Below, in pieces: positions 2,677-24,253 of a DNA stretch of 64,000 nt. The notes beneath the pieces are model-generated. The model did not search any database, was not told the origin of the DNA, and saw nothing but the letters and a program-made list of their open reading frames with translations. The position numbers and the translations under genes are program-made. Each line of letters starts with the position of its first letter. Position 1 is the first letter of the stretch. The stretch spans positions 34,175-98,174 of the forward strand of contig JAFXDK010000068.1 of the NCBI GenBank assembly GCA_017521805.1, read 5' to 3'. The DNA comes from Ruminococcus sp. (GTDB lineage: Bacteria; Bacillota; Clostridia; Oscillospirales; Ruminococcaceae).

Positions 2677-3177
2677 TCACTTCAGCATTTTAACAGCGTC
2701 AACTATAAGCTCCGCTGTACTCATAGGACTGCCGCTGCCGTCTATCTGTATTGTGGAATGTTTCTTGTATACATCATGACGGGCATTGAAGCGTTCTTCA
2801 AGCTCCTCTTTTGTGGAATTCACAACAATGGGGCGGTTTGAATCGCCGTTTATACGGCTATAGCAGGCTTCAAAATCAAGGTCTAAGAATATAACAGCTC
2901 CTGACTTTGCCGCCGCTTTTGCAGAATCGGGATTGAGCATTGCGCCGCCGCCGCATGCCACAACAGCCTTTTTTCCGCAGAGGGATTTTATAACCTCCGC
3001 TTCAACCTGACGGAAATATGCTTCGCCCTTTTCTGCGAAAATTTCGGGAATTGTCATGCCCTCTCTTGCCACTATAACCTCATCGGAATCGCAGAAGCTG
3101 TAACCAAGCTTCCTTGCGGCAAGCTTTCCCACAGTGGATTTTCCGCAGCCCATAAATCCGCATAAAAATACAGTCAT
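2677..3177 (-). CDS. aroK: Shikimate kinase
   Basis: 166 residues, normal length. It phosphorylates shikimate with ATP to shikimate 3-phosphate (step five of the chorismate pathway). Visible motifs are the Walker A loop GFMGCGKST (residues 7-15), the metal/substrate DSD motif at 30-32, the FR substrate arginine near 56, the GGG substrate loop at 76-78, and the C-terminal YKKHST region of the adenine-binding end. It starts one base before the stop region of aroE, so the two shikimate genes are closely coupled. Confidence 0.95.
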   Translation of the reverse strand: MTVFLCGFMGCGKSTVGKLAARKLGYSFCDSDEVIVAREGMTIPEIFAEKGEAYFRQVEAEVIKSLCGKKAVVACGGGAMLNPDSAKAAAKSGAVIFLDLDFEACYSRINGDSNRPIVVNSTKEELEERFNARHDVYKKHSTIQIDGSGSPMSTAELIVDAVKMLK

Positions 3178-3178
3178 A

Positions 3179-4021
3179 TCACTTACCCCGATTCATCTTT
3201 TCAACTTCAGCTTCAACATCTTTTATTATTGCAGATATATCCTCCGAGGCAAATTCTCCGCCATACCACAGCTCGTGAGCCTTTACAGCCTGATATACAA
3301 GCATTGCCGCGCCGCCTACTGCTGTTCGTCCAAGCTCTCTTGCCTTTTTCATAAGGAGTGTTTCAATGGGATTGTATATAACATCGAAGAAGCTGAGACA
3401 ATTTTCAATTATCTCATCTGAAACGGGGCATGCGTCAATTTTCGGGTACATACCCACGGGAGTTGCATTTACAAGGAGGTCAAAGCTGCCCTCAATCTCG
3501 CTTACAAGGCAGATTTTTACAGAAGCACCGCCGCACTTTGAAAGTATCTCCGCCATTACAAGCTGTGCTGTTTTTACAGCGTCGGGGAGAACGGCGATTG
3601 TCAGCTCTGCTCCGTGAAGCGCCGCTTCAATGGCAATCATTCTGCCTACGCCGCCGCAGCCTACAAGGAGTACTTTTCCGCCGAGGGGAAGCAGTTCTGC
3701 GGAACGGAGAAATCCGTCGCAGTCTGTATTGTATCCCGTCATAACTCCGTTGTCGTTGGACACGCAGTTGACGGAATTGTACCGCTCCGCACTCTCGCCA
3801 AGTCTGTCCGTCATGGGAATAATTGCCGTTTTGTGCGGAATAGTTATATTGAAGCCTTTCAACCGGCGGAGCATATCTTCGCTTTCCGCAAGCTTTTCAG
3901 GTGCAATGTCAATCAGCTCGTAGCTGTAGTCCTCGATTCCGCTTAAAGCAAAAAGCTTATTGTGTATAAGCGGCGACATTGAATGTCCCAGAGGATGCCC
4001 GATAAGTCCGTATTTATCCAT
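3179..4021 (-). CDS. aroE: Shikimate 5-dehydrogenase
   Basis: 280 residues from the ATG at 4019-4021, which overlaps the fabD stop as ATGGATAA and has GAGGGAG 9 nt upstream; the frame also extends to a TTG at 4046-4048 but that start has no ribosome site. It reduces 3-dehydroshikimate with NADPH. Substrate motifs are GHPLGHSMSP at the start, FNITIPHK with the catalytic lysine, and GYNTDCDGF; the nucleotide fold shows GCGGVGR, and NATPVGM is typical of the family. Coupled to fabD upstream and aroK downstream, an unusual mix of fatty-acid and aromatic genes. Confidence 0.95.
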   Translation of the reverse strand: MDKYGLIGHPLGHSMSPLIHNKLFALSGIEDYSYELIDIAPEKLAESEDMLRRLKGFNITIPHKTAIIPMTDRLGESAERYNSVNCVSNDNGVMTGYNTDCDGFLRSAELLPLGGKVLLVGCGGVGRMIAIEAALHGAELTIAVLPDAVKTAQLVMAEILSKCGGASVKICLVSEIEGSFDLLVNATPVGMYPKIDACPVSDEIIENCLSFFDVIYNPIETLLMKKARELGRTAVGGAAMLVYQAVKAHELWYGGEFASEDISAIIKDVEAEVEKMNRGK

Positions 4022-4928
4022 AAATTTCAGCTCCCTCAAGTCCTGCAAGATTTTCTATATTAAGGGCAGTTACTCCTGAAAGCGTCTTTTTAACAAGTCC
4101 TGTAAGTGTTTTTCCCGGACCGAATTCAACAAATGTATCTGCTCCTGCCGCTTGCATTGCCGCAAGCTCGGATGTAAAGCGTACAGGCGAAACGATATGC
4201 TTTGCAAGAATTGCCGCCATATCGCTGAAATCTGTCAGCTCACCGCCGGTTACGTTGGAGTAATACTTCACCTGCGGAGCGTTGAATGTGATTGTCTTTG
4301 CTGTTTCATAGAATTTATCAGCGGCAGACTGCATCAGCTTAGAATGGAATGCACCTGCAACATTAAGAGGTACAACTCTTGCCTTTAATTCTGCAAATAT
4401 TTCGCTTACTTCGGCAATTCCCTCGGGTGTTCCTGCAATTACCGTCTGCTGTGGGGAGTTGTAATTTACTGCTGTGACATAGTTTGAAGCGTTAGCGCAG
4501 ATTTCTTCGATTTTCTCGGGAGCAAGCTTCATAACAGCCGCCATTGCGCCCTTTTGCTCTGCTGTTGCCGCTTCCATAGCCTCTGCACGTGCCTTTATAA
4601 GTCTGAATCCGTCCTCGGCTGATACCATACCTGAGCTTACAAGTGCGGCATATTCGCCGAGAGAATGACCTGCCACGCCGTCGAATTTATATCCCTTTTC
4701 AATTGCGGCATTGAGACATACAAGGGAAGTGAGCATAATTGCAGGCTGAGCGTTGATAGTTTTTGAAAGCTCCTCAATGGGACTTTCAAAGCAAAGCTTT
4801 TTCATATCCTTGCCGAGAATATCCGACGCAGTGTCGTATAATTCCGCGGTTTTTGGAAATGCCTCCGCAATATCTCTGCCCATGCCCTGAGCCTGTGAAC
4901 CCTGTCCTACAAACAGTGAAATAGTCAT
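4014..4928 (-). CDS. fabD: Malonyl-CoA:ACP transacylase
   Basis: 304 residues. It moves malonyl groups from CoA to acyl carrier protein for fatty-acid chain extension. The catalytic serine is Ser89 in GHSLGEYAAL, with the malonate-binding arginine near residue 114 and the catalytic histidine in NVAGAFHSKLM. The early motif VGQGSQAQGMG is diagnostic. Most Firmicutes carry fabD between fabK and fabG; here it is divergent from the main fab operon and heads the aroE/aroK unit, separated from fabH by about 300 nt. Confidence 0.96.
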   Translation of the reverse strand: MTISLFVGQGSQAQGMGRDIAEAFPKTAELYDTASDILGKDMKKLCFESPIEELSKTINAQPAIMLTSLVCLNAAIEKGYKFDGVAGHSLGEYAALVSSGMVSAEDGFRLIKARAEAMEAATAEQKGAMAAVMKLAPEKIEEICANASNYVTAVNYNSPQQTVIAGTPEGIAEVSEIFAELKARVVPLNVAGAFHSKLMQSAADKFYETAKTITFNAPQVKYYSNVTGGELTDFSDMAAILAKHIVSPVRFTSELAAMQAAGADTFVEFGPGKTLTGLVKKTLSGVTALNIENLAGLEGAEIYG

Positions 4929-21000: not shown

Positions 21001-21368
21001 GCTTCGATAATGAGACTTCGGGGCATCAGTATGACTATAAAGGTAAAGGGACTGGCAAGATAGTAGCCGATAACTCCCTGATAGCCGCCTGAAAGATTTC
21101 GTGCCCAGCTGTAGAGGACGCTTTCGCCCTCCCAGAAGCAGCGGCGGATATTTTCGAAATAGTAGACGTACTGACCGTTAAGGTCGAGTGTCAGTACAGA
21201 ACGCTCTCCGAAGGGATAAACTCCGAAGATAACGTAAGCGATGAATGTCAGCAGAGCCGGAATCAAGAAAGCGGCAATATAGTAAAGCGGCTTGAACTTG
21301 ACATAGCGTGCAGGCTCATAAGCACACGCATAATCAGGCTTTTTGCTGGCGGAAGTTGTTTTTATCAA
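18042..21368 (-). CDS. YfhO-family integral membrane protein (GT-C-like)
   Basis: 1108 residues from a TTG at 21366-21368 behind AAAAGGAGG. The N-terminal 500 residues contain about 12 hydrophobic segments, beginning near residues 30-50, with the YfhO-type luminal motif LTLDLNGQYVYYFE after the first helix and SPFTFIVILMP later. A large extracytoplasmic domain follows (about 520-960), then one more helix near 975-995. B. subtilis YfhO is linked to lipoteichoic acid glycosylation, so a lipid-linked sugar transferase of envelope polymers is likely. The last roughly 75 residues are acidic then Asn/Lys/Gln-rich low complexity, probably a disordered cytoplasmic tail. Confidence 0.85.
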   Translation of the reverse strand: MIKTTSASKKPDYACAYEPARYVKFKPLYYIAAFLIPALLTFIAYVIFGVYPFGERSVLTLDLNGQYVYYFENIRRCFWEGESVLYSWARNLSGGYQGVIGYYLASPFTFIVILMPRSLIIEALMIMQICKVGACGVAFCAYAQNSKNVKPLQSVIFSTMYALMAYVSIQLIDPMWIDGPIFLPLIILGVEYLIDDGRKINYIIPLAIMFIANFYIGFMVAIFVALYFVYYLFFGAKRKFKGIGDYAFVCGRMVLATGVALMCSYIMIVPIYNALALGKFDFSEPDYSMKTMFNPIELLPTLFPNQYYSVNVDEGTRMYGRPEIYCGVLSFVLSVLYFFNKKITINRKIGHGLLLFVMFFSMWIKPLNMMWHGGQDPNWLPYRYSFLISFILVSMAAETFSKLDGYKMSIKAPMGVFGGIALLSFVFEALKETFNYNETDYKYVAINPYKETVTINGESVEHLFLGTLVFGVILSAIYLTFAYLISHTKSEKGRIVISVFLAGLVFFEAGYNIFDTIYKIDQEVYYSSRDSYSEIMSAPDIMEDLEAIDDGFYRAEKTYFRNVNDNQAYGLKGVSHSSSVMNARILTFLETLGYTTKSYESRYDGNTPLADSLLGIKYVIHDPSQFNPETDIRTLLSPHYNKVGTSTITKEGGNDQELEIYENPDALPIGFMADDDILRLSYLGNDNPFNSMNNFLSSMTGNTPDYTTLEPRPYFYRLQFDPVNDVELNECTVRDYNGQFCYDALPNAVDPTVRVHFTSQSEDNLYIYLKSDNQKQCNLWLSTTKNEETGEFEDFTGLGSYFDGYDNCIINLGSFPVGTEIELRMTIIQQDKTGANEFIMIKDYQFYYFDYDLFHEDIQKLKESPLVLNMDKTKENRIVGEVNAKDGQILYTSIPYEPGWTIKVDGKKVDQQFEEVITEDGMNLAVNNTNNKLGSVCILNAMLGLRLEPGTHTIEMTYAPPGFKAGVLLLILGIAAVIALWYFDRKNNPALLNKAEAKANWKKGIYTIPEPAVEEKKPVKIIKSKGAVAEVEFTSSEDEEFEDEDEEMEAAENKPEKKNSKGLAEELYGENSDSKKEKKQNNNNKNKNNSQKNNNNKNNQNKNKKKKK

Positions 21369-21449
21369 TGTTGTTCCTCCTTTTTGGGATATGGTAAATT
21401 ATTGGTGCAGCAATAAAAAGCCATAATTCCCTATCATATTATCCTCTTA

Positions 21450-21478
21450 ATTATACTATAAAACGGGGATTTTTTCAA
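21450..21478 (-). promoter_or_regulatory. Promoter of the YfhO gene
   Basis: Minus-strand TTGAAA (21473-21478), 17-base spacer, TATAAT (21450-21455); leader about 80 nt. Confidence 0.75.
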
Positions 21479-21597
21479 GGGTATTCGATATTTTTCGATT
21501 AAATGCACAACCTGTACAATGATATAGCGAATAATACAGCAATTTAACCAAAATTTCTGTTTATTATCTTTGTCTGATGACATTTCACAAATTCATA

Positions 21598-21626
21598 TTG
21601 AAATCTCAATAGATATATGTTATAAT
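21598..21626 (+). promoter_or_regulatory. Promoter of the radical SAM operon
   Basis: TTGAAA (21598-21603), 17-base spacer, TATAAT (21621-21626), about 40 nt before the start codon. Confidence 0.75.
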
Positions 21627-21668
21627 ATAGGTGAAATATAGAGCTTTAAGGTGAAAGGGGTGATTCTT

Positions 21669-22649
21669 TTGGATTACACAATCAGCATAACGAACAAATG
21701 CAATCTGAAATGCAGTTACTGCTATGAAAGGCACCTGAATACAGAATACGGAAATATAAACGAAGAAACAAAGGTAAAAATTGCAGATTTCATAAATCGT
21801 CAGGGCGACGCAGGTATCGTTTATCTTTTCGGCGGAGAACCCCTGCTTTATAAGGACATTGTAAAGTATTACTGCGAAAACGTCAAAGCGAAGAAATTTG
21901 TAATCACAACAAACGGAACGCTTCTTGACGAAGAATTCGTAAAGTGGTGTGTTGAGAGAAAAGTTATTATAAATATGTCCCATGACGGCATAAAATGCAC
22001 TGAACGGGGCGTTGATACAGCAATTCTTGACGCAAATCTGAAAATGCTGCTGAAATATCAGCCTGAAACTCTTGTACAGCTTGTGTATACGGAAGAAACA
22101 CTCCCTGAGCTTTACAATAATGTATTATATCTGAAAAATCTCGGAGTAAAAAAGGTATCAGCGGCAATGGACGCATTCCTTAATCCCGAAAATCCCGACA
22201 GCTTCGGCGATATTTTACGGGAGCAGTGGCGTAAAATTGCTGAAATCGAAGATTTATATATGTACGAGCTTGCTGTAAAAAAGAAAAACATCAAGGAAAA
22301 TATACGGGGCATCTGCGAAATCTGCAAAAAGAAAGTGTTCATAAACTGGGACGGAAACTTTTATCCCTGTGTGCAGTTTCAGAACATAGCCGAATATCGC
22401 TGCGGAGATATTTTTGTTGGTATCAAAGCGGAAGAAGCAAGAAAAGCGCATCCCGATTATTCAATGGTATCGGAGAGATGCAATGGCTGTGAAATATTGA
22501 ATTACTGCCATAATTCCTGCGCTTGCAGAAAAATGGCAACAACAGGCACGGTAAGAGATATTTCAGAAGCAGCCTGCATGGAAGAACAAGTGCATATTCT
22601 TACTGCACTTGAAATAATATCTAAAGAAAACGGAGGTAAGGAATCATGA
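21669..22649 (+). CDS. Radical SAM/SPASM domain peptide-modifying enzyme
   Basis: 326 residues from the TTG at 21669, which has AAAGGGG 8 nt upstream; GTG codons at 21651 and 21660 lie in or before the ribosome site. The SAM cluster motif is Cys11-x3-Cys15-x2-Cys18 (CNLKCSYC), with GGEP at 55-58 for SAM binding. The C-terminus is a complete SPASM module: C219-x9-G-x4-C234, then C271-x2-C274-x5-C280-x3-C284, and a final C303, enough for two auxiliary [4Fe-4S] clusters. Such enzymes (anSME, PqqE, AlbA, MftC) oxidatively modify peptides or proteins. Its stop overlaps the next start by 4 nt, so the secreted repeat protein downstream is the obvious candidate substrate. The family specificity cannot be named from the sequence. 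Confidence 0.9.
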   Translation: MDYTISITNKCNLKCSYCYERHLNTEYGNINEETKVKIADFINRQGDAGIVYLFGGEPLLYKDIVKYYCENVKAKKFVITTNGTLLDEEFVKWCVERKVIINMSHDGIKCTERGVDTAILDANLKMLLKYQPETLVQLVYTEETLPELYNNVLYLKNLGVKKVSAAMDAFLNPENPDSFGDILREQWRKIAEIEDLYMYELAVKKKNIKENIRGICEICKKKVFINWDGNFYPCVQFQNIAEYRCGDIFVGIKAEEARKAHPDYSMVSERCNGCEILNYCHNSCACRKMATTGTVRDISEAACMEEQVHILTALEIISKENGGKES

Positions 22650-23881
22650 GAAAATTCACAAAAGAGATAACAGCGCTTCTGGCTGCGGCGACTGTCAGTG
22701 CATCTGCCGGTGCAATTACAGCGTCATCGGAAGAAATCGAAGCAACTGTAGGTGATATAGTTGCTCCTACAGAAGAATATCCGGCTGTAGACGGCGGTAT
22801 GATGCCTCCCGACGACTACATTGAACAGCCAGACACCACAGCAATTGCGGGCACATACACTACCACAACCACTACAACGACAACCACAATTCCGCCCCTT
22901 ATGGGCACTTATACCACAAGCAAAGCTACAACAACGGTAACAACAACAGAGAATTTAACCACAACTACCCTTGTCGGCACTTATACTACATGCACAACAA
23001 CGACAACTATACCGCCAACAGCAGGAGTTGACATGCCTTCTGATGACGACATTGAATTAACAATAGGCGATATGATGCCCCCTGATGACTACATTGAGCC
23101 GCCGACGGAGGAAGAACTTCCGCCAACAGCAGGAGTTCCAATGCCCCCTGACAGCTATATCGAAACAACCACAACGACAACTGAAGAAATTCCTCCGATT
23201 ATGGGAGGATTTCCCCTGCCCGACCCAGACGGAGATATAAACCTTGATGGAAAGTTCGGTATTGCAGATGTAGTTACAATTCAGAAATGGATGCTTGGCA
23301 AAAAGGATGTTGAAATTAAATACTGGGAAAATGCCGATTTATACAAAGACGGCAAGCTTGATGTATTTGATGTTTGTCTGATGAGAGAAAAGCTGATAAA
23401 AGATAACTTTATTGATAAGAAAAATACTTTTCTTGAATTTCAGATAACCGAGAATGTAGAGAACGTGGATTTTTCGCAGTATAACAGAATCTACGGCTTA
23501 ATGGGTGGAAAAGAATACTATGGCAAGGGATATTCAGCTGTCAAGGACGAGGACGGAAACGAAGTAAAGCCCGAGCATTATGTTATGTATACAATTACAG
23601 CTTATCCCGACTATGCTGACGGCGGACAGTATATAACAAAAATTGAAATTACCGATCCGAATGTAATGGTACACGGTCTTACTGTTAAATCCTCATTTGA
23701 GGATTTTGAAGCAGTATTCAAGGCAATGGGCTATGAAACATCTGTAACTGAACATGGCAGATATGTGCAGTATAATGCAAAAAACAAAGACGGAATATCC
23801 TACACTATCCATATATCAAACGAAGTTATAAAATTGACAATACAGGCAGAAGTAACAAATCGGGACAATATTCAGTATTAA
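22646..23881 (+). CDS. Secreted repeat and Thr-rich protein with internal dockerin; candidate radical SAM substrate
   Basis: 411 residues. Signal peptide about 1-26 (LLAAATVSASAGAITA). Residues 30-190 form a low-complexity segment with two kinds of repeats: PPDDYIE at 54-60 and 145-151, PSDDDIE at 131-137, PPDSYIE at 167-173; and GTYTT at 69-73, 87-91 and 111-115, between Thr tracts. The phrase PPx(A/M)G recurs at about 83, 123, 159 and 183. A dockerin-like pair of calcium loops follows (DPDGDINLDGKFGIADV at 193-209 and ADLYKDGKLDVFDV at 230-243), then an unrecognised 155-residue domain. The start ATGA overlaps the radical SAM stop and has GGAGG upstream. Repeated, acidic, Tyr/Asp-containing motifs next to a SPASM enzyme suggest multi-site modification; this is inference. 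Confidence 0.82.
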   Translation: MRKFTKEITALLAAATVSASAGAITASSEEIEATVGDIVAPTEEYPAVDGGMMPPDDYIEQPDTTAIAGTYTTTTTTTTTTIPPLMGTYTTSKATTTVTTTENLTTTTLVGTYTTCTTTTTIPPTAGVDMPSDDDIELTIGDMMPPDDYIEPPTEEELPPTAGVPMPPDSYIETTTTTTEEIPPIMGGFPLPDPDGDINLDGKFGIADVVTIQKWMLGKKDVEIKYWENADLYKDGKLDVFDVCLMREKLIKDNFIDKKNTFLEFQITENVENVDFSQYNRIYGLMGGKEYYGKGYSAVKDEDGNEVKPEHYVMYTITAYPDYADGGQYITKIEITDPNVMVHGLTVKSSFEDFEAVFKAMGYETSVTEHGRYVQYNAKNKDGISYTIHISNEVIKLTIQAEVTNRDNIQY

Positions 23882-23981
23882 AATTGTATAACTATATATT
23901 GCAATTCTGTGTAGTACGTTGTAACATCTTAAACTTTACTTTTTTATTATAATAAATACAAAAGGGTAATTTATCACCAAA

Positions 23982-24122
23982 GAGGAACACCTACGGGGCA
24001 AAAGGGAGGGAAAAACAAAACTGATACAAAAGTCGGCATTTCCCTCCCTTTTTCCCCTACGGTTTTCCTCTCTGGACTCTCTTTTCCCTTTCCCCTTTTT
24101 CCCTCCCTTTGCCGACTTTTGA
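23982..24122. repeat. Purine/pyrimidine-biased inverted repeats
   Basis: Two nested inverted repeats: 23982-24011 (GAGGAACACC...GGGAGGGA) pairs imperfectly with 24041-24070, and ACAAAAGTCGGCA at 24026-24038 pairs with TGCCGACTTTTGA-like sequence at 24110-24122. The strand is almost pure pyrimidine from 24039 to 24109. No gene in 23882-24240 was found; short frames here are composition artefacts. Confidence 0.6.
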
Positions 24123-24253
24123 CGAGGGGGATTGTTGTATAAGAAAAAGGAAAGTCTTTTCATGCGTGTCAAGTGGTCTTTTCAAATGTTGTTTATTCAA
24201 TTCTTCTATCTATTAAATTTCTGTTTCTATTAAATATAAAGTTTTAGGTAGTA

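Follow-up and report, generated by a model that had tools for sequence, protein, structure and literature searches.

A radical SAM/SPASM enzyme is paired with an exported dockerin protein

The window analysed here, a stretch of 64,000 nucleotides from a Ruminococcus genome, holds a pair of plus-strand genes: a radical SAM/SPASM enzyme of 326 aa (21669-22649) and an exported dockerin protein of 411 aa (22646-23881, ATG at 22646), whose open reading frames (ORFs) overlap by an ATGA. We consider it fairly probable that this pair is a maturation unit resembling those of ribosomally synthesized and post-translationally modified peptides (RiPPs), in which the signal peptide of the dockerin protein doubles as leader and the enzyme modifies glycine-centred motifs of a surface-displayed arm. 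The proposal builds on what sequence comparison yields: the gene pair itself and its linkage, a conserved leader, a glycine-centred array, and a dockerin class and C-terminal part that are exchanged. In relatives, arrays of a similar kind occur on lipid-anchored proteins, which suggests an undescribed kind of cell-surface protein modification.

Pfam assigns the enzyme a Radical_SAM domain (2.8e-16) and a SPASM domain (1.7e-4). Numbered from 21669, its cysteines fall into C11xxxC15xxC18, C219-x9-G229-x4-C234 and C271xxC274x5C280x3C284, and across 25 aligned enzymes the cysteines at 11, 15, 18, 216, 234, 271, 274, 280, 284, 286 and 303 are invariant. A CxxxCxxC motif together with SPASM cysteines is the mark of radical SAM/SPASM peptide or protein maturases, and the window enzyme has both. 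Its most likely start, chosen from the alignment, is the TTG at 21669 (the mechanical ORF opens at the GTG at 21651). Because the core begins at about residue 4 and the last conserved cysteine is residue 303, there is little room for a separate RRE (peptide-recognition) domain, and none is among the Pfam and NCBIfam matches listed for the pair.

The second protein, the putative substrate, has Dockerin_1 as its sole Pfam domain (2.3e-5; 25.0 bits against a cut-off of 22.9) and no match in NCBIfam. Its signal peptide, assigned by eye (residues 1-28, 22646-22729), includes the conserved leader MRKFTKEITALLA and is followed by a Thr/Pro/Glu-rich arm of 167 aa with nine glycine-centred motifs (residues 29-195, 22730-23230), by the dockerin (residues 196-258, 23231-23419) and by a C-terminal domain (residues 259-411, 23420-23878), which also occurs at loci L037 and L049 and gave no match at E<=1 in a PDB sequence search. 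A sequence-only reading of this DNA had pointed to the enzyme/dockerin-protein pair, its ATGA overlap, its cysteine pattern and its repeat motifs, all of which are present, and had suggested that the substrate may be surface-displayed, with which the signal peptide and the dockerin agree. In its own genome (2.54 Mb, 112 contigs) the enzyme has no second close copy, the next best match reaching 35% identity over 105 residues; the leader pattern occurs in a single place, and the 23 other matches to the second protein lie nearly all across its dockerin.

A conserved leader accompanies the enzyme

Among 396 genomes of the family, 21 gave enzyme matches at E<=1e-25. Twelve hold the close type (54-100% identity), two of them with an extra paralogue at 47-49% and one (G188) also with a distant enzyme, and the remaining nine hold distant enzymes only; all matches of the distant family enzymes are at 28-36% identity. 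A pattern scan of species genomes gave 19 loci, 18 in Ruminococcus records and one in an Oscillospiraceae record, and they include the isolates ATCC 19208, MA2007, YL228 and XPD3002 (R. flavefaciens), which carry the pair. Together with the window and ten loci from the family survey, this makes 30 close-type loci (L054 and L062 are the same stretch, and L059 is cut by its contig). In all 30, the next same-strand gene after the enzyme starts with M[RK]KF[TI][KN][EQ]I, at a spacing of -17 to +94 nt from the enzyme stop, which is -4 in 14 of them.

These loci yielded 29 different substrate proteins, each 100 aa or longer. In their leaders M1, K3, F4 and I8 are invariant, T5, K6 and L11 occur in 28 (L038 has Ile at 5) and E7 and A13 in 27, and the leader is kept although the enzymes diverge to ~55% identity. 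A conserved N-terminal leader beside a dedicated modifying enzyme is one of the general marks of a RiPP system, and by its sequence the pair has this arrangement.

A leader profile of 28 residues, built from 24 of the 29 substrates, matched 12 of the 396 family genomes at E<=1.4e-12, with one match per genome, and this set coincides with the 12 close-type genomes; the other 384 gave no strong match (best 1.3e-5). Since 11 of the 12 had contributed rows to the profile and match by construction, its news is G303, the only one that gave none, and the absence from 384 genomes; moreover the close-type genomes are related, and the match of 12 to 12 is not 12 independent events. The sequence-only reading had held the pair to be an enzyme/substrate unit, which is borne out by linkage at 30 of 30 loci and by the lack of a strong leader in the 384 genomes without a close-type enzyme. 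Homologues of the repeat protein that regularly occur without the radical SAM gene, looked for with the leader profile in the 396 genomes, were not found. Nor did the leader profiles give a strong case of an array-bearing substrate without enzyme: the weak matches inspected were no such substrates, one (L119) having a different N-terminus and the other (L120) being the signal peptide of a glycoside hydrolase-looking protein.

The arm carries an array of glycine-centred motifs

The window protein contains four PxDxxIE motifs (residues 54, 131, 145 and 167), three GTYTT motifs (69, 87 and 111) and four PPxxG motifs (83, 123, 159 and 183), and its arm has 11 glycines, or nine motifs with GG counted once (Gly 36, 50/51, 69, 87, 111, 127, 141, 163 and 187/188). 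Across the 29 substrates, the arms extend over 70-365 residues between signal peptide and dockerin, are composed of 22.7% Thr, 11.8% Pro and 10.9% Glu, and hold 4-20 glycines each at a median spacing of 16.5 residues (GG counted once). The commonest glycine context is [E/T]-x-P-P-[L/T]-[A/M/V/I/E]-G-[T/V/D/G/E]-x-x-P. Motif counts and information content refer to 28 of the arms, L046 having been dropped as its boundary was not found by pattern: at least three copies of [LIVMTFPSYE]-x-G-x are present in 28 of 28, PPx[AM]G in 19, PxDxx[IT]E in ten and GTYTT in three. The several motifs noted in the window are mostly one: a hydrophobic residue or Thr, any residue, Gly, then Pro, Thr or acidic residues. 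Two modification sites had been suggested from the window alone, and neither holds up across the arms: Tyr/Asp of DDYIE would be available in only ten of 28, Thr/Tyr of GTYTT in only three, and glycine is the one obligatory residue.

The arm pattern exceeds chance. The surroundings of arm glycines hold 6.3 bits of information, compared with 0.65 (standard deviation, s.d., 0.06) in composition-preserving shuffles, and when one glycine is drawn per protein the values are 12.4 versus 6.3 bits (s.d. 0.45; largest of 300 shuffles 7.55). Copy number had been expected to vary while the motif persists, and this is the case in two strains (L044 and L045), whose arms are distinguished by a single 14-residue unit, two indels of one residue and a few substitutions; the whole proteins have 13 versus 14 glycines, and all glycines of the shared part are kept in the alignment. 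In the window's own genome, 21 other dockerin ORFs in 20 stretches have no run of arm-like composition longer than 36 residues.

Dockerins and C-terminal parts vary between substrates

The window dockerin has Phe in both calcium-loop regions and Trp in c1 and d. Phe and Trp at these places mark dockerin group 6a of R. flavefaciens FD-1 as described (PMC2930009), the group to which we assign it by eye; for dockerins of groups 3 and 6, ScaC was the only cohesin bound (PMC5301203). With this dockerin and a signal peptide recognized by eye, the window protein has the makings of a cellulosomal dockerin protein. Simple patterns sort the 29 substrate dockerins into 11 that are group-6/3-like, seven that are group-1-like (xIMQxxxNP) and 11 unsorted. 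At most six residues follow a fixed 70-residue dockerin span in 17 substrates (including L052, which is cut by its contig); in the remainder the span is followed by a C-terminal part of 85-383 residues. Cohesins are encoded in all 12 close-type genomes, with three matches in the window's own genome, and in nine of 23 other enzyme-bearing genomes tested.

At locus L040 a tandem pair of substrates (2907-3482 and 3714-4676) shares nearly the same signal peptide and similar arm units but has different dockerins, which looks like a duplication followed by a change of anchor.

Distant enzymes lie beside lipoproteins

At all ten distant family loci a lipoprotein (lipobox assigned by eye) is encoded just upstream of the enzyme, a gene order reversed relative to the dockerin type. 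The leaders of these lipoproteins read approximately M[KE]IxPxKxxxxPxYA or MKINPxKNPKxPxYP, and their motifs include LAGDVAV, LEGEAMP and LDGDVVM. Over all lipoproteins beside the more distant enzymes of Clostridia, those of four genera display an L-x-G-[DE] array, preceded by a conserved leader of another kind. The genome G188 (loci L073 and L061) contains a dockerin-type and a lipoprotein-type system side by side.

A search of 391 Clostridia genomes with the enzyme alignment returned, besides the window's own, 14 genomes at E<=5.5e-76 and one at 3e-65, separate from a background that starts at 3e-53. A lipoprotein lies near the enzyme at 13 of 14 Clostridia loci (downstream at L147, with one ORF between), and at the 14th (L149), which is at a contig end, a lipoprotein is represented by its C-terminal part alone. 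In the six enzyme-bearing genomes of genus g188 the lipoproteins carry the motif: five genomes have one to three of 66-133 aa, and the sixth (G720) has one of ~190 aa with a different leader. At the other eight loci (genera g130, g218, g263, g151, g253 and g254) the leader, where visible, runs into LLKxxPxRWK or similar. A phylum survey of 348 genomes added two further loci.

A lipoprotein leader profile (A5) gave ten matches at E<=8.2e-14 in the 391 Clostridia genomes, all from five g188 genomes that had each contributed rows to it. Each strong match is within ~1.1 kb of the enzyme, and the two g188 genomes without enzyme (G530 and G685) gave none. A weaker, unlinked match (6.5e-7; L188, G453:C8:36509-36598, minus strand) heads a lipoprotein with one YMGDTTV motif, a possible substrate in trans; a second weaker match scored 6.9e-7. 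Glycine surroundings were scored in 17 lipoproteins, that is, the 27 collected minus two spurious ones, six of the RWK/HWR type and two near-copies (the 27 did not include L075 and L139, of motif type, or L146, L147, L148 and L149). Leu is found at -2 in 30%, Asp or Ala at -1 in 45% and Asp or Glu at +1 in 41%, and with all glycines used the surroundings hold 4.2 bits versus 1.38 in shuffles.

That the substrate is a large dockerin protein, as the sequence-only reading had it, is true of the window; the dockerin is nevertheless not essential to the wider system, which has lipoproteins elsewhere, and its class itself changes. We had also considered the dockerin as the defining part of the wider system, and rejected this as related enzymes go with lipoproteins in other lineages. 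Read across these loci, dockerin class, lipid anchor and C-terminal part are exchanged, and leader and array stay.

Family and descent of the enzyme

The best NCBIfam match of the window enzyme is PapB (NF047865), at 114.4 bits against a cut-off of 340, and PapB is again the top family over all 25 aligned enzymes. PapB and the other named maturases were tried as assignments for the window enzyme and stay under cut-off in the 25 families listed of 77. In the Clostridia background, three enzymes tested are SCIFF maturases (618-657 bits, cut-off 425) and three shorter ones match PapB under its cut-off.

An unrooted tree built from 53 enzymes separates the close type, in which two orphan paralogues are nested, by a long branch (1.87, support 100/100). 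Another branch (100/96) has on one side ten SCIFF-type rows together with three enzymes of ~350 aa, and support for the lipoprotein-type group is 81/62; one outgroup row (L101), a fragment, fell on the dockerin side. That close and lipoprotein types share an origin is compatible with the tree but not proven by it. Between species, the ratio of nonsynonymous to synonymous substitution rates (dN/dS) of the enzyme is 0.057-0.079 (three pairs, dS 0.9-1.2), indicating purifying selection.

Proposed mechanism and alternatives

In the mechanism that we propose, the polar N-terminus of the substrate's signal peptide (MRKFTKEI) would be the recognition leader for the enzyme, which would act in the cytoplasm, ahead of Sec export, along the unfolded Thr/Pro/Glu-rich arm. 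There it would modify the repeated x-x-Gly-x sites. The backbone of glycine or of a neighbour is the most likely target (epimerisation or oxidation at Calpha are examples), since the motif has no obligatory nucleophile or aromatic residue. After export, the dockerin would attach the arm to the cellulosome, probably through the ScaC adaptor in the case of this dockerin class, and in other Clostridia a lipid anchor would take the dockerin's role. That the exported protein is modified at all we infer from these comparisons, and likewise that the adjacent enzyme does so, that the glycine motifs are the site, and the timing, chemistry and docking partner. As to the role of the arm, our guess is a protective or binding arm of a fibre-degrading surface.

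The enzyme might instead modify the adjacent protein by a known side-chain chemistry, forming Cys thioethers as in ranthipeptides, cyclophanes or ethers at aromatic residues or Thr, or cyclopropylglycine at Val or Ile before Gly as TvgB does; we regard this as unlikely. Of 295 arm glycines, 24 have a Cys within seven residues, 26 a Trp and 166 any of F/W/Y/H; Cys is missing altogether from 16 of the 29 arms and Trp from 22. Many more glycines have Thr (233) or Asp or Glu (255) close by, counts that would suit such chemistry and are expected from the abundance of these residues. PapB, the ranthipeptide maturase and best family match, is like the window enzyme a compact radical SAM/SPASM enzyme of ~330 aa with a multi-site substrate, but the window enzyme scores far under its cut-off, and the substrates here are large and exported, with no obligatory Cys. 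PapA has Cys-X3-Asp/Glu motifs, and PapB tolerates many contexts while requiring Cys and Asp/Glu (PMC9413430); given the Cys counts above, the arms do not present a PapA-type Cys-Xn-Asp/Glu substrate. The residue before an arm glycine is most often Ala (28-31%), which is incapable of forming cyclopropylglycine, and Val and Ile together make up 18-19% (figures from two profiles, one of 317 glycines that ran past the dockerin in two rows and one without six arms). For TvgB-type RiPPs, Ile is an alternative to Val before Gly. The poly-cyclopropylglycine system TvgB/TvgA also combines a radical SAM enzyme with a repeated motif, TVGG, and works at the Val before Gly (PMC9062424), a position that in our arms is variable, with Val not conserved. 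Its cluster, tvg, includes an oxidase gene along with peptidase/transporter genes, and the covered parts of that account mention no anchored protein (PMC9062424). With glycine as the sole obligatory motif residue, we favour backbone chemistry at Gly or its neighbour.

A reading in which the arm is a mere linker and the true target is the C-terminal domain, the dockerin or some other protein would be helped by the fact that the enzyme could work in trans and that the glycine content of the arm is in itself not unusual. We find it improbable, since most substrates (the 17 above) have next to nothing after the dockerin span, the dockerin class changes while the glycine motifs persist, and the other dockerin ORFs of the genome lack a long arm-like run. 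Still more improbable is that the two genes are co-inherited neighbours, functionally unrelated, the enzyme having lost or changed its role. In favour of this, the pair is accessory, with 12 of 396 family genomes having it; against it, the genes are on the same strand within 94 nt at all 30 loci, the enzyme is under strong purifying selection, and enzyme and leader protein are paired in other lineages with the gene order reversed.

A number of observations weigh against the maturation unit that we favour. The arms have 6.3% Gly, compared with 4.9% in short Thr/Pro-rich stretches of other dockerin proteins, so glycine content alone does not discriminate the arm. Signal peptides of the xylanase type (MNRKYTTQISALL) are weakly like the leader: the G292 match (1.5e-4) comes from a xylanase-like dockerin protein, of which it is the signal peptide, encoded near that genome's locus. 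G096 gave an uncharacterised match of similar score (1.7e-4). The leader may therefore stem from an ordinary signal peptide, and part of the leader likeness may be such ancestry. Two enzyme paralogues (L067 and L068) adjoin no such substrate. Among the lipoproteins, the array is absent in eight further genera (eight class-survey and two phylum-survey loci), and at six of these ten loci (four class, two phylum) there is a single G-rich FEHGDGRGSFGC-type motif. In these six (L145, L146, L147, L148, L153 and L154) the lipoprotein has one FEHGDGRGSFGCxSVAPPxFLSEEEA-like motif and a domain ending in EQVRDFLxWLxxxGVI, and the one such protein tested was under every Pfam and NCBIfam cut-off. One glycine per lipoprotein gives a weak signal, 13.1 versus 10.5 bits (s.d. 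0.78; largest shuffle 13.3). By NCBIfam score, the one lipoprotein-type enzyme tested (L141, 190 bits) and background enzymes (196-291) are all nearer to PapB than the window enzyme is (114), and the kinship of dockerin-type with lipoprotein-type enzymes hinges on the root, so that the shared motif could be convergence.

Relation to known systems

Other known systems share single traits with the pair. Bufferins and relatives modified by MNIO enzymes have Sec signal peptides, some of them lipoprotein signals, and include some very long substrates; bacterial RiPP precursors are described as seldom having signal peptides, MNIO substrates being a known case (PMC12452194). Those systems differ in using another enzyme superfamily, mostly Cys chemistry and a required partner protein. 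SCIFF maturases (TIGR03974), the common background of our Clostridia survey, are SPASM enzymes too, but are ~460 aa long and on a separate branch, and the window enzyme scores 66 bits against that family. The substrates resemble other cellulosomal dockerin proteins of R. flavefaciens in having a signal peptide, a Thr-rich region and a dockerin, and are unlike them in the leader, the glycine motif array and the adjacent radical SAM enzyme.

Compared with these families, a signal peptide as radical SAM leader, a large-protein array with only Gly obligatory and exchangeable anchors would be new; enzyme class and logic are known, and substrate type and probably chemistry are not. More tentatively, the pair could stand for a novel class of radical SAM protein maturation, with the signal peptide as leader, backbone modification at Gly-centred arrays, and arms displayed at the cell surface via interchangeable anchors (dockerins of the cellulosome in Ruminococcus, lipids in other Clostridia). 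Literature searches, covering open-access papers only, found no description of this system. To our knowledge, most radical SAM maturases have short peptides as substrates, which are subsequently released by cleavage; anaerobic sulfatase maturases are an exception in acting on whole proteins. The substrates proposed here would be whole exported proteins designed to stay on the cell or in the cellulosome, and they belong to organisms with a central part in rumen fibre breakdown. If this is true, it would add an extra chemical layer to cellulosome biology, provide a leader/motif rule for finding more substrates (such as the possible unlinked one in G453), and imply an enzyme tolerant of many residues around glycine.

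Other features of the loci

A sigma-70-like promoter match (TTGAAA-17-TATAAT, TG before the -10) lies at 21598-21626 on the plus strand and ends 42 nt upstream of the enzyme start; it is a consensus match only, one of 17 found in 21300-24200, where shuffling predicts 8.7.

The enzyme paralogues at 47-49% (L067, 6853-7863, minus strand; L068, 6569-7555, plus strand), which are without a leader or dockerin substrate, are convergent with a gene for a protein of 930-940 aa full of L-x-[DE]-G repeats, which we take to be YhgE-like; a radical SAM gene nearby is presumably YgiQ-like.

Downstream of the substrate gene, at 23977-24121, lies an inverted-repeat element for which Rfam gave only sub-threshold microRNA look-alikes. 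Parts of it have 12 further matches in the genome, at 92-99% identity and several of them at contig ends, and on this pattern it is an interspersed repeat resembling miniature inverted-repeat transposable elements. Its two halves are almost adjacent in the window and 109 bp apart on contigs C61 and C45.

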